Shown: piece after piece, positions 25,994 through 31,897 of the stretch
Layout of the letters: every line of letters starts with the position of its first letter
Position numbering within the stretch: the first letter of the stretch is position 1
Assembly (NCBI RefSeq): GCF_900149685.1
Contig: NZ_LT702999.1
Location: 1,240,001-1,304,000 of the forward strand
From: Erythrobacter sp. Alg231-14
GTDB lineage: Bacteria; Pseudomonadota; Alphaproteobacteria; Sphingomonadales; Sphingomonadaceae
DNA: 64,000 nt
Direction: 5' to 3'
Translations under genes and position numbers: made by a program
The notes under the pieces: generated by a model
The model's input: only the letters and a program-made list of their open reading frames with translations
Database searches by the model: none
Told to the model about the DNA's origin: nothing

Positions 25994-26163
25994 GAAACTT
26001 CCCTCAATTGACGCGCGGAGACCAAGACCAACGCAGCGAAAGTGTCAACGGGAATTGGCACAGATCATTCACGGCAAACCCAAACTTGCAGGAACACACC
26101 GGATCGCACCGTTTCGCCAAAGCGGCTCTTGCAAAACCGGCCCCAGCAGGTCACACGCAACAA

Positions 26164-26955
26164 ATGGTTCCCGTTTCGTTCGCACCAACCAACCACGCAG
26201 AAATGCAGTTCGCAGGGCAGGAATTCGCCTTGATCAAAAGCACGGCTGTGTCGTGGACGTTGTATTGGCCGAATGAGCGCGCTTTGTTGGTTGCGGATTT
26301 GCACTTGGAAAAGGGCAGTTGGTACGCACAGCATGGTCAGATGCTGCCCCCGTATGACAGCCGCGAAACACTGGAGAGGGTCGCCAATGCAGTCAAAGCA
26401 ACCGGGGCACGGCGATTGATCACTTTGGGCGATAATTTCCATGATGAGGCGGGCACGAGGCGGCTTGATGATTGTGCGACCGATATGCTCGAAACGTTGA
26501 CCCGGTCGATTGATTGGGTGTGGATCACCGGCAATCATGACGAAGAGATTGTCGACAAGAATGGCGGCGCGTTTGGTGCGCAGGTCATGCCGGAATTGGA
26601 CATTGGCGGGATCATCTTGCGACACGAGGCAAAACCCGGAGAAACCCGTGCGGAAATGTCAGGGCATTATCATCCCAAAATGCGCGTGACCGTGCGCGAC
26701 CGCCACATCGCCCGACCTTGCGCGGTGGTTGCCCGATCGGCCAGCACCGAACGAATGATCCTTCCTGCCTTTGGCGCTTACACCGGCGGCATGGACGCCA
26801 ATGCGCCTGAAATCGTCAACGCGCTTTTGCCAGCGGAGCGGATTGATGCCGTTTTGCCTGCAAAAGCGAAGATGGTGACGTTCCCGATTTACCGCGCGGC
26901 CCAATCATCGGCCGACTGCGGGGCGCCATCGGGGCGTGATCTGCGACCGAATTGA
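26164..26955 (+). CDS. pdeM: PdeM-like metallophosphoesterase (ligase-associated DNA repair nuclease family)
   Basis: This 263-residue calcineurin-like phosphoesterase has all metal motifs: DLHLEKG (D-x-H), LGDNFHD (GD), TGNHDEE (GNHD) and SGHYHPK (GHxH). The pattern and length match PdeM, the phosphoesterase found with the bacterial ligase-associated DNA damage response genes. Those companions (Lhr-type helicase, exonuclease, ATP ligase) are not in this window, so it is an orphan here. Start ATG 26164 is inferred from family length; the longer frame to 26008 translates to unlikely sequence. Confidence 0.82.
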   Translation: MVPVSFAPTNHAEMQFAGQEFALIKSTAVSWTLYWPNERALLVADLHLEKGSWYAQHGQMLPPYDSRETLERVANAVKATGARRLITLGDNFHDEAGTRRLDDCATDMLETLTRSIDWVWITGNHDEEIVDKNGGAFGAQVMPELDIGGIILRHEAKPGETRAEMSGHYHPKMRVTVRDRHIARPCAVVARSASTERMILPAFGAYTGGMDANAPEIVNALLPAERIDAVLPAKAKMVTFPIYRAAQSSADCGAPSGRDLRPN

Positions 26956-27087: not shown

Positions 27088-27627
27088 GCCCGTCCACCTA
27101 GGCGATCGATGGCCCCGCCCGTTAAAAGCGGCCCTCGCTACGACAATTTCATCCAAGTTCCCAAAGTCCGCGTCATTGATGACGAAGGCGAGAATCTTGG
27201 CGTAATGTTCACCCGCGAAGCGATGGAGCAGGCCAATGAAAAGGGCCTAAACCTCGTCGAAGTGTCCCCCAACGCGGACCCGCCGGTGTGCAAATATCTC
27301 GATGTCGGCAAATACCGGTTTGAGGCGCAGAAAAAGGCCAACGCCGCGCGCAAATCGCAAAAGACGCAAGACATCAAAGAAGTCAAAATGCGTCCCAACA
27401 TCGACACGCATGATTACGATGTGAAAATGCGCAACGTGAACAAATTTATCGACAACGGCGATAAAGTGAAAGTCACGCTGCGTTTTCGCGGTCGTGAAAT
27501 GGCGCACCAGCATTTGGGCATGGATCTGCTCAAACGGGTTCAAGAAGACATGGCGGAAACCGCCAAGATCGAAGCGTTCCCCCGGTTGGAAGGTCGACAA
27601 ATGTTGATGGTGCTGTCGCCGAAATAG
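27085..27627 (+). CDS. infC: Translation initiation factor IF-3, probable AUA start
   Basis: IF-3 binds the 30S subunit, discriminates against non-canonical start codons and prevents premature 50S joining. From ATA 27085 the protein has 180 residues (172 from ATG 27109). The N-domain ([27 protein letters not shown]) is followed by a Lys-rich linker ([24 protein letters not shown]) and the C-domain ([34 protein letters not shown]). The eight extra residues (ARPPRRS after the initiator) are basic and lie directly after a well-placed ribosome site. An intrinsic terminator follows 27 bases after the stop. rpmI and rplT are not downstream. Confidence 0.93.
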
Positions 27628-28043: not shown

Positions 28044-29180
28044 ATGATCCGACTTCAGGCCCTGACAAGTGTTGCACTTGGCGCCGCTTCGGCGATCGCC
28101 CTTAGCTCCGCGCCCGCCGCTGCACAAACCACCGCCGGCGCAAACGATTCAGCCTATGCGACATTCACCCCCAGCGACACGCCCAACAGCGATGGGATCG
28201 ATTATTCGATCTGGGACGAAGCGATGAGCAATCTGGTCATTTCGATGGGCCCGTCATTGCGCGAAACCGCCGGGCGCCCGGTCCCCGGTTTGGGCACTCG
28301 GCGTCAATATGGGCACATTTCGCGCTATCGCCTCGAAGGGTCGCGGATCATGTTCAGCTTCCTCGACAGCGACGTGATCTCAAGCTTTACTGAATATCGT
28401 CAGGATCTCGAAAACACCGCTTCGATCATCGATATTCAAGCGCTAAACCGCAACGAACAACTCGCCTATTGGATCAACCTTCATAATGTTGCGATGATCG
28501 AACAGATCGCCAACAATTGGCCGGTTCGCCAGCCGCGCGACATCGAAATCAACGGTGTTCCATTGGACGAGGCACGCTTTATCACGGTTGAAGGCATCGC
28601 CCTTTCTCCGCGCGACATCCGCGAACGCATCGTGTTTGCGAACTGGCGCGATCCGCGTGTGATTTATGGTTTTTGGCGTGGCGAAATTGGCGGCCCATCC
28701 ATTCAACGCGAGGCGTTCAACGCCGACAACGTATCCCGCTTGCTTGATCGTGGTGCGCGTGATTTTGTGAACTCACTGCGCGGAACGCAAAAATCCGGCG
28801 ACACGCTTCAAGTGTCAGAATTGTTCGAAGAGGCGGCACCGTTCTTCTTCTCCGATTTTGAATCCGACCTGCGTGCCCATTTGTCGCGGTTCGCCAATGC
28901 AGACACGGCCGCTTTGCTGTCGGGCACGACACAAATCGACGCCAGCGTGAAAGAATACGACATTGCAGATTTGGCCGGTGGCGTGCGCGAACCGACCTAT
29001 TCGAATGTGACATCGGCCGATGGCACGTCGCAAAGTTTCCGCATCCCGCAAAGCATGCAGCGCCTGCTGCAACAGCGTGAGCAGAAATTCCAGCGGATCA
29101 TCCGCGAAGGTCGAACCGGCACAGTCACCTTCTCGAACATCACTTTGCCTGGTGATCCAGAAGACAACGAAGTCGAATAA
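28044..29180 (+). CDS. DUF547 family secreted protein, copy 1
   Basis: A 378-residue protein with a Sec signal peptide (residues 1-28, ending SSAPAAAQ). The DUF547 domain is recognised by NEQLAYWINLHNVAMIEQIANN and SPRDIRERIVFANWRDPRV. In typical DUF547 proteins the next segment holds a cysteine-containing NCGxxSCP-like motif; here it reads VIYGFWRGEIGGPSIQ, with no cysteine. The C-terminus is LPGDPEDNEVE. AAGGA precedes the ATG by nine bases. Two paralogues follow in tandem. Periplasmic location is inferred; activity is unknown. Confidence 0.85.
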   Translation: MIRLQALTSVALGAASAIALSSAPAAAQTTAGANDSAYATFTPSDTPNSDGIDYSIWDEAMSNLVISMGPSLRETAGRPVPGLGTRRQYGHISRYRLEGSRIMFSFLDSDVISSFTEYRQDLENTASIIDIQALNRNEQLAYWINLHNVAMIEQIANNWPVRQPRDIEINGVPLDEARFITVEGIALSPRDIRERIVFANWRDPRVIYGFWRGEIGGPSIQREAFNADNVSRLLDRGARDFVNSLRGTQKSGDTLQVSELFEEAAPFFFSDFESDLRAHLSRFANADTAALLSGTTQIDASVKEYDIADLAGGVREPTYSNVTSADGTSQSFRIPQSMQRLLQQREQKFQRIIREGRTGTVTFSNITLPGDPEDNEVE

Positions 29181-29207
29181 TCTCGTTTCGACATCGGCAC
29201 AGAAAAT

Positions 29208-29240
29208 GGCCGTCAAACCCATTGGGTTTGGCGGCCTTTT
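29208..29240 (+). terminator. Intrinsic terminator after DUF547 copy 1
   Basis: A 13-bp stem, GGCCGTCAAACCC with GGGTTTGGCGGCC (one G-T pair), a three-base loop and a TTTT tail. Confidence 0.8.
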
Positions 29241-29329
29241 CGTTATGATCTGAGATGTTTGGTGAATTCAGGCGATTGAAACATCGCACACAATGCACCA
29301 TCAAATGGACCAATTGAAGGAAGATGACG

Positions 29330-30517
29330 ATGCAAGGTCCCGCGTTCAAATTGGGTGCAACTTTGGGTGTTGCCCTTACCACTGTTGGTGCGCCGCTTGC
29401 CGCGTCTGATGAGGTGCATCCATCCGTCCTTGTTTCTGTTGCGCAGGCGGCATCGGGCCCTGCGACAGGGACAACAGCGAACACCGCGCCGGCTGCCAAT
29501 CCGTTTTCCATCTTTACGCCCACACGCAACCCAATCCGGCATCGCATTGATTACGAGTTCTGGGACTTTGCGCTCAAGAACCTTGTGATTTCGATGGGAC
29601 CATCCACGCGCGACACTGCCCGCCCGCCGGGCGACGTGTTGGGATCTCGCATCCGACAGGGGCACAATTCCCGCTATCGTTTGGAAGGGGCGATGGTCGG
29701 CTTTTCATTCATGGATGAACAGGCGATCAGCGGTTTGGCCGAATATCGCCGCGATCTAGAAAGCGTGGCCGACACGCTCGACATTGGCTCCCTGCCCCGC
29801 AACGAACAACTGGCCTATTGGCTGAACCTTCACAATGTCGCGTTGATGGAACAGATCGCGTTGAATTGGCCCGTGCGCCAACCGCGCAGCATCGAAATCG
29901 ACGGCGTGACGCTTGACGAGGCGCGCTTTATTGCGGTCCGCGGCATCGACATGAGCCTGCGCGACATCCGCGAACGGATCGTGTTTGCCCATTGGCGTAA
30001 TCCCAAAGTGATTTACGGGTTTTGGCGCGGCGAAATTGGCGGGCCAGCGTTGGAACGGGACGCATTCACCGGGGACAATGTCAGTTCCCTTCTCGATCAG
30101 GCGGCGGAGGATTTCGTCAATTCGCTGCGCGGAACGCAGAAGAATGGCAGAAATCTCGACATCTCCACCCTGTATGGTGACACCGCCCCATTCTATTTCC
30201 CCAATTTTGACGCCGATATCCGCGAACACATTGCCGAATACGCGAATGAAGAAGTCACCGATATCCTTGGCCGAACATCCGTCATCCGCGCCTCTATCCG
30301 CGAATGGGATATTGCCGATTTGTCGGGCGGTTCGCGCGGCGCCAATTACCTCGCCGCCAGCCGACCCGGCCTATCTATAGGCGCGGCCCAATTGCTCGCC
30401 CAAAGACAGCGGAAGTTTCAGATTTTGGAGTTGCGCGGGGATACGCGCCGCGGCCAGGTGTTCTTTTCAAACATACGTCTGCCGGGCGATCCCCCCAACG
30501 CCAACGCCGTAGAATAA
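29330..30517 (+). CDS. DUF547 family secreted protein, copy 2
   Basis: The 395-residue paralogue begins MQGPAFKLGATLGVALTTVG, a signal peptide. ATG 29330 is preferred to 29324 because GAAGGAAG (29316-29323) is then correctly spaced. It shares with copy 1 NLVISMGPSTRDTA, GHNSRYRLEGA, RNEQLAYWLNLHNVALMEQIALNWPVRQPR, YGFWRGEIGGP and FVNSLRGTQKNG, and ends LPGDPPNANAVE. The cysteine motif of other DUF547 proteins is absent here too. It is separated from copy 1 by a terminator and so probably has its own promoter. Confidence 0.85.
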   Translation: MQGPAFKLGATLGVALTTVGAPLAASDEVHPSVLVSVAQAASGPATGTTANTAPAANPFSIFTPTRNPIRHRIDYEFWDFALKNLVISMGPSTRDTARPPGDVLGSRIRQGHNSRYRLEGAMVGFSFMDEQAISGLAEYRRDLESVADTLDIGSLPRNEQLAYWLNLHNVALMEQIALNWPVRQPRSIEIDGVTLDEARFIAVRGIDMSLRDIRERIVFAHWRNPKVIYGFWRGEIGGPALERDAFTGDNVSSLLDQAAEDFVNSLRGTQKNGRNLDISTLYGDTAPFYFPNFDADIREHIAEYANEEVTDILGRTSVIRASIREWDIADLSGGSRGANYLAASRPGLSIGAAQLLAQRQRKFQILELRGDTRRGQVFFSNIRLPGDPPNANAVE

Positions 30518-30613
30518 CGTATCAATCGATTTTCGATCGTTCATCTTGGGTTGTAAAAGCGCCTGATAGCTTTTCCGCTGTGGGAATATTTATTGTCTAG
30601 TGGGAGACTATTG

Positions 30614-31837
30614 ATGACGGCTCGATCCAATCTTCGCCTGACTTCAGCTCTATTGGCTGTTGCCAGTTTAACGGCACCCCTCGCAGCAGAGACATCTGCC
30701 ATTCCAATCCCGGCCCAATCGCAATCGCGCGCAATCGCGCCCGACAATGCGACCACACAGCTGGCGCAATTCGCCCCGGATCAGGATCGCCGCGAACACC
30801 GCATCGATTACGAACATTGGGATGAGGCGCTCGCTTGGTTTGTTGTCCCCATGGGACCATCCATCCGACAAGGTGCGCCGCGTGTTGATCCGTTGGTCGG
30901 CACACGCAGGATTTATGGCCATGAATCGCGCTATCGCCTCGAAGGGAACCGGGTCGCGTTTTCATACCTGACCCCGCAGATTCGCCAATCGATCACCGAC
31001 TATCGCGCCGATCTGGAACAGATTGGGAGCGAACTTGATCTGTCTGCGATCCCTCGCAATGAACAGCTCGCCTATTGGATCAACCTGCACAATGTTGCCG
31101 TGATCGAAGCCTTGGCCGCGGAATATCCATTGGCCGAACCCAGCGCGCGCGGATTTGGCACGAACAACGCTGCATTGGATGATGCGATCCTCGTCACAGT
31201 CGATGGCGTATCGCTTTCACCGCGCGATATTCGCGAACGGATCGTCTATCCCAATTGGAGCGATCCGAAAGTCATGTACGGTTTTTGGCGCGGCACGATC
31301 GATGGCCCATCGATCCAACGGCTTGCCTATACCGGCGGCAATGTCGACGCGCTCTTGTCCCTTTCTGCAGAAGAATTCGTCAACTCCCTGCGCGGGGTGG
31401 AACGGTGGGGCGGCGCCTTGCGGGTGAGCCCGATCTATGACGAAGCAGCAGAATTCTACTTTGAGAACACCGACGCGCTTCGTGCGCATCTTTCCCAATT
31501 TGCGCGCGATGACGTCCGCGAATTGGTCAACGAAACCAGCGATGTCGCATACAAGCGGGTGGAAGGCGACCTCGCCGATCTTGCCCGCGGCGAACGCGAT
31601 CCTGGCGTCAATTTCATCTGCCAACAAGCCGGCGGCACACAGGGTGGCGATCCGCCCCGCGTCGGCAATGCCACATGCACGCCTACTCGGACCGTGCCCA
31701 ATCTGGCGATCCAACGTTTGATGGAAGAGCGCGCCGAAAAACTGCGCCGGGCCCGCAAACGCGGCATCCGCAGCGGCATGGTCATATTTGGCGATGGGCA
31801 ATACGTCGAAGGGGAAACCCCACCCGAAGTCGAATAG
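30614..31837 (+). CDS. DUF547 family secreted protein, copy 3
   Basis: The most divergent of the three copies, 407 residues, with signal peptide (residues 1-24, ending AAETSA). GGGAGA lies before ATG 30614. Shared features are IDYEHWDEALAWFVVPMGPS, GHESRYRLEGN, RNEQLAYWINLHNVAVIEALA, SPRDIRERIVYPNWSDPKVMYGFWRGTIDGPSIQ and FVNSLRG. It carries an insert with a cysteine pair (FICQQAGG and NATCTPTRT) lacking in copies 1 and 2, and ends GETPPEVE. Function is unknown. Confidence 0.83.
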   Translation: MTARSNLRLTSALLAVASLTAPLAAETSAIPIPAQSQSRAIAPDNATTQLAQFAPDQDRREHRIDYEHWDEALAWFVVPMGPSIRQGAPRVDPLVGTRRIYGHESRYRLEGNRVAFSYLTPQIRQSITDYRADLEQIGSELDLSAIPRNEQLAYWINLHNVAVIEALAAEYPLAEPSARGFGTNNAALDDAILVTVDGVSLSPRDIRERIVYPNWSDPKVMYGFWRGTIDGPSIQRLAYTGGNVDALLSLSAEEFVNSLRGVERWGGALRVSPIYDEAAEFYFENTDALRAHLSQFARDDVRELVNETSDVAYKRVEGDLADLARGERDPGVNFICQQAGGTQGGDPPRVGNATCTPTRTVPNLAIQRLMEERAEKLRRARKRGIRSGMVIFGDGQYVEGETPPEVE

Positions 31838-31863: not shown

Positions 31864-31897
31864 GGCCCGTCATCAGCGTCGCTGGTGACGGGCCTTT
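31864..31897 (+). terminator. Intrinsic terminator after DUF547 copy 3
   Basis: GGCCCGTCATCAGC and GCTGGTGACGGGCC form a 14-bp stem (one G-T pair) with a 3-base loop, followed by TTTC. Confidence 0.75.

Follow-up and report, generated by a model that had tools for sequence, protein, structure and literature searches.

Introduction

Proteins with a DUF547 domain (PF04784) are found in bacteria and haloarchaea and, according to the literature on the family, also in plants. Widespread as the family is, the literature searched, mostly plant expression studies, yielded no function or activity for it, and no similar solved structure was found (see below); an apparent hit in the Klebsiella phage literature was a false match to DUF5476. 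Canonical members, about 300 aa long in the genus and taxonomic family of the window (RIHYAVNCASIGCPNL), carry the motif H-x4-C-x4-C (H207, C212, and C217 in the copy 1 numbering used below). Here we describe three tandem DUF547 genes from Erythrobacter sp. Alg231-14 in which this motif is replaced, and compare them with the rest of the family. The window is the whole stretch of DNA analyzed, 64,000 nucleotides of contig NZ_LT702999.1.

Results

Three tandem DUF547 genes between infC and a DASS transporter

The three genes follow one another on the forward strand, as do all features given below. Copy 1 (28044..29180) encodes 378 aa, copy 2 (29324..30517, with an alternative ATG start at 29330) 397 aa, and copy 3 (30614..31837) 407 aa when counted from ATG 30614, a start that lies 7 nt after a GGGAG sequence and is better than the TTG at 30593 of the listed reading frame. 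In a profile search the PF04784 domains of copy 1 (28437..28769), copy 2 (29789..30118), and copy 3 (31043..31381) scored 58.6, 53.8, and 55.9 bits, above the Pfam gathering cut-off of 27 bits, and the assignment of three consecutive DUF547 genes made in an earlier note from the sequence is thereby confirmed. They are the only DUF547 genes in this genome. Identity to copy 1 is 55% for copy 2 and 47% for copy 3, and the blocks that had been listed as shared (NEQLAYW-NLHNVA, YGFWRG-I-GP, FVNSLRG, and the final VE) indeed show no variation in the alignment of the three.

All three N-termini show a hydrophobic core and an AxA-like site, in copy 1 as a predicted signal peptide of approximately residues 1-27 (nt 28044-28124). 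This was seen with a simple script, and the proposed secretion thus stands as a prediction. Copy 1 is followed by a terminator with a 13-pair stem (29208..29236) and copy 3 by one with a 14-pair stem (31864..31894), both of which had been anticipated, while no comparably strong terminator was found 3' of copy 2. The copy 3 terminator separates the array from a gene for a DASS/SLC13-type Na+ symporter (PF00939, 31971..33452), and infC, encoding IF-3, lies upstream (27109..27627). In most Erythrobacteraceae loci the array sits between these two genes and holds 1-5 copies, so that the family is expanded as suggested. Upstream of infC the open reading frame 26008-26955 has no Pfam match at E 1e-5, and a similar frame (cluster 1) recurs near the array in relatives.

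Loss of the cysteine motif and of other polar residues

Where canonical proteins have the cysteine motif, the window proteins read V-I-Y-G-F-W-R-G-E-I-G-G-P, with YGFWRG at 28665..28682, 30014..30031, and 31277..31294 in copies 1, 2, and 3, respectively; the alignment bears out the replacement in each of them. The motif was not found elsewhere in the three proteins either: copies 1 and 2 are devoid of cysteine, and copy 3 has its two cysteines away from the motif, both within a variable insertion in the C-terminal part. Orthologues of copy 3 (e.g. L052 7550, L054 7488, and L075 7638) again have two cysteines, unlike the copy 1 proteins, which are nearly all cysteine-free. With the position checked in the window copy, the recurrence makes a loop disulfide, and not the family motif, possible in copy 3 proteins.

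Among the DUF547 domains sampled the motif is the rule. H207, C212, and C217 are present together in 63 of the 75 DUF547 domains from a genome sample across the phylum, and both cysteines are kept in 175/208 domains when the phylum and class samples are combined. Among 201 non-redundant domains both cysteines are present in 112, neither in 88, and a single one in only 1. Such pairwise gain and loss is compatible with a disulfide or with a site made of two cysteines; as the cysteines change together and H207 does not strictly accompany them, they could also make up a structural disulfide or belong to a metal/thiol site. Residue E193 accompanies the pair in 107 of 112 domains and occurs in 7 of the 88 domains that lack it. 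The idea that a strict Glu-Cys-Cys triad is lost as a unit, which had seemed to hold in 131 domains, was lowered to a tendency because of the 7 exceptions in this larger sample.

The cysteine loss pointed out in the earlier note is therefore real, but it does not stand alone. In the clade to which the window proteins belong (see below), E193, H194, R198, H207, C212, and C217 are all replaced, as are W175 and Y147 of the canonical set. E193 is mostly R, R198 has become Y or F, H207 I, C212 R, and C217 G; copy 1 reads DIRERIVF where canonical members have E193/H194 (IEH) and R198. The clade has its own fixed residues, S71, R73, R96-E98-G99, D191, Y208-G209, G213, N243-S244-R246-G247, H279, and D309, and H147 is conserved in most members, being tyrosine in the Gammaproteobacteria and in Emcibacter.

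A widespread cysteine-less clade

The trait is not peculiar to the three window genes but belongs to an old clade across several orders. A scan of public genomes found members in Erythrobacteraceae, Parvularculaceae, Robiginitomaculaceae, Emcibacter, Kordiimonas, and Aestuariibacter, in Oceanospirillales and Lysobacterales MAGs, and in one MAG labelled Myxococcota; because the scan picked NEQLAY-like peptides, part of the conservation of that block is built in. All 56 alignment members (56/56) match PF04784. An order-level search gave a match in 82/301 genomes, with some canonical members counted in. In a domain tree calculated with the motif columns left out most cysteine-less domains cluster together, 71 non-redundant rows in the larger set, although this tree is based on 121 columns and has many open forks and limited branch support. 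Smaller, separate cysteine losses appear in other places, among them Legionella and the second copy of a planctomycete (L129). Judged from the sequences, the cysteine-less class is a widespread clade that reaches other Alphaproteobacteria and some Gammaproteobacteria and no oddity of one genome. The genus and taxonomic family of the window hold both kinds, the cysteine-less members being about 400 aa long.

Parvularculaceae relatives have lipobox-like signal sequences, which fit residence in the envelope. Two canonical proteins from the same family and genus as the window (L006 and L007) carry twin-arginine and lipobox-like signals. Five DUF547 proteins lacking the canonical pair (L100, L104, L113, L126, and L020) have glycine-rich C-terminal tails, and some of these have two conserved neighbours in common (clusters 20 and 21). 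A Phycisphaerae MAG (L129, 4677-6719) has an adjacent DUF547 pair of which the first is canonical and the second is without the cysteine pair.

History of the array

In the tree, copy 3 splits from the lineage of copies 1 and 2, which diverged from each other within the genus. Each copy groups with its orthologues in other Erythrobacter genomes, and since these stand in the same order, the duplication predates many of the Erythrobacter species. The suggested triplication was thus not one equal event. Copy number has varied after the duplication, and broken copies occur in some genomes, namely split or interrupted copies in G1141 (one internal stop) and L074. The dN/dS values against orthologues are 0.08-0.20, and by this sequence measure the three genes are real and under purifying selection.

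Neither the flanks nor distant neighbours suggested a partner gene; of 141 neighbour proteins outside Erythrobacteraceae, no more than 3 had any one Pfam family in common. A link to phototrophy was rejected, photosystem genes being present in 85/114 genomes of the genus and absent from the genome of the window, and so was one to rhodopsin (3/114 genomes).

Predicted fold

AF2 models were confident both for copy 1 (pLDDT 93.6, pTM 0.92) and for a canonical member from L103 (pLDDT 90.9, pTM 0.83). Core helices and strands come in the same order in both models, and on the basis of this element order, as distinct from a superposition, copy 1 and canonical members share a predicted fold. The motif segment is mostly coil in both models and does not follow a clear strand as had been described. 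Foldseek gave no significant PDB counterpart for the copy 1 model (best E 0.94, probability 0.05) or for the canonical model (best E 1.8), bearing in mind that it can miss distant or permuted matches, and the structure prediction called for earlier was thus confident for copy 1, the protein modelled, but led to no known structure. Neither a papain/transglutaminase-like nor any other solved fold was thus matched significantly, and sequence searches of solved structures returned only chance matches to ribosomal proteins. Viral models gave no significant Foldseek match to copy 1, no relative was found on viral contigs, and NCBIfam and PHROGs contained no informative family.

Discussion

The reading that we tentatively favor, at slightly less than even confidence, is that the window genes are exported, probably non-enzymatic (pseudoenzyme-like) DUF547 paralogues. 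The three genes are paralogues of the cysteine-less branch of the family, and their products would be secreted by Sec and work in the periplasm or outer envelope. With less certainty, the chemistry of the canonical site may have been given up in the clade, and the kept fold with its clade-specific residues may bind an envelope ligand or partner; the site geometry and any pocket are proposed from residue conservation. The tandem copies might then provide dosage or slightly different binding specificities. The earlier suggestion of a non-catalytic or re-purposed family fits the loss of the wider polar set, but a catalytic role of the cysteines is hypothetical, and so, as the literature searched reports no activity of canonical members, is a loss of catalysis in the clade. 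Also speaking against this reading are the conserved polar residues H147, D191, H279, and R73, which could serve a different reaction, and the lack of a conserved partner gene outside Erythrobacteraceae. A more specific version, in which canonical DUF547 proteins have an active or metal/thiol site (putatively E193, H194, H207, C212, and C217, in a fold without solved counterpart) and the window genes are an old pseudoenzyme lineage of tandem exported binding proteins, we consider unlikely as a whole.

The cysteine pair could instead be a mere structural disulfide, lost by a clade that keeps the original family activity. The cysteines are both present or both absent in 200/201 non-redundant domains, the tree shows 8 or more switches from one state to the other, most DUF547 members look exported, and the Legionella clade drops the pair while keeping W175, Y147, R198, and mostly H207. 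We nevertheless hold this to be rather unlikely, as our clade is also without E193, R198, H207, and W175, more than the loss of a disulfide needs; some canonical members resemble Tat substrates, which are folded before export, and an independent-pairs test on supported branches was not significant (4 pairs: 3 same, 0 opposite, 1 no difference). That the clade consists of active enzymes with a rebuilt site, where H147 of NLHN, D191, H279, and R73 replace the canonical set, seems quite unlikely to us. Conservation of these residues in the clade is 0.85-1.00 and purifying selection on the genes is strong, but the tyrosine at position 147 in the Gammaproteobacteria and Emcibacter members speaks against such a site, and no fold relative with known chemistry was found. 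Finally, the patchy presence of the array (65/114 genomes of the genus) and the split or interrupted copies could mean that the array merely reflects tandem duplication and itself has little function; in view of the low dN/dS values and the conserved order of orthologous copies in different species we regard this as very improbable.

Comparison with other DUF547 systems

On some plasmids a canonical DUF547 gene has a gene for a radical SAM protein or for a redoxin beside it; an archaeal DUF547 gene on a Halorubrum plasmid (L333) adjoins a redoxin gene. On the Acinetobacter portensis plasmid pJNE5-X3_NDM-1 (L336) a canonical gene lies between TVP38/FAD oxidoreductase and TIGR04283 arsenosugar-type glycosyltransferase genes, and the reading frames overlap, which suggests a common operon. 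Judging by these plasmid neighbours the canonical site may be thiol-related, but this is not transferable to the window genes, which belong to the same family but have neither of the A. portensis flanking genes next to their array.

The cysteine-less DUF547 proteins of Legionella (L102, L105-L110, L112, and L114) resemble the window proteins in lacking both cysteines and E193. They differ in being short (approximately 280-330 aa), in retaining W175, Y147, R198, and mostly H207, and in having lost the cysteines separately on the tree.

With canonical PF04784 members the window proteins have in common the NEQ(L)A..NxxN block, the order of structural elements, and a domain scoring over the cut-off. 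They lack E193, H194, R198, H207, C212, and C217, and their class is about 100 aa longer: an added segment follows the first helix, and the C-terminus is extended and ends in VE. Canonical and cysteine-less members sometimes co-occur in one genome, even in one array, and a large natural class devoid of the whole conserved site, set against the canonical members, offers a clean comparison for the role of that site.
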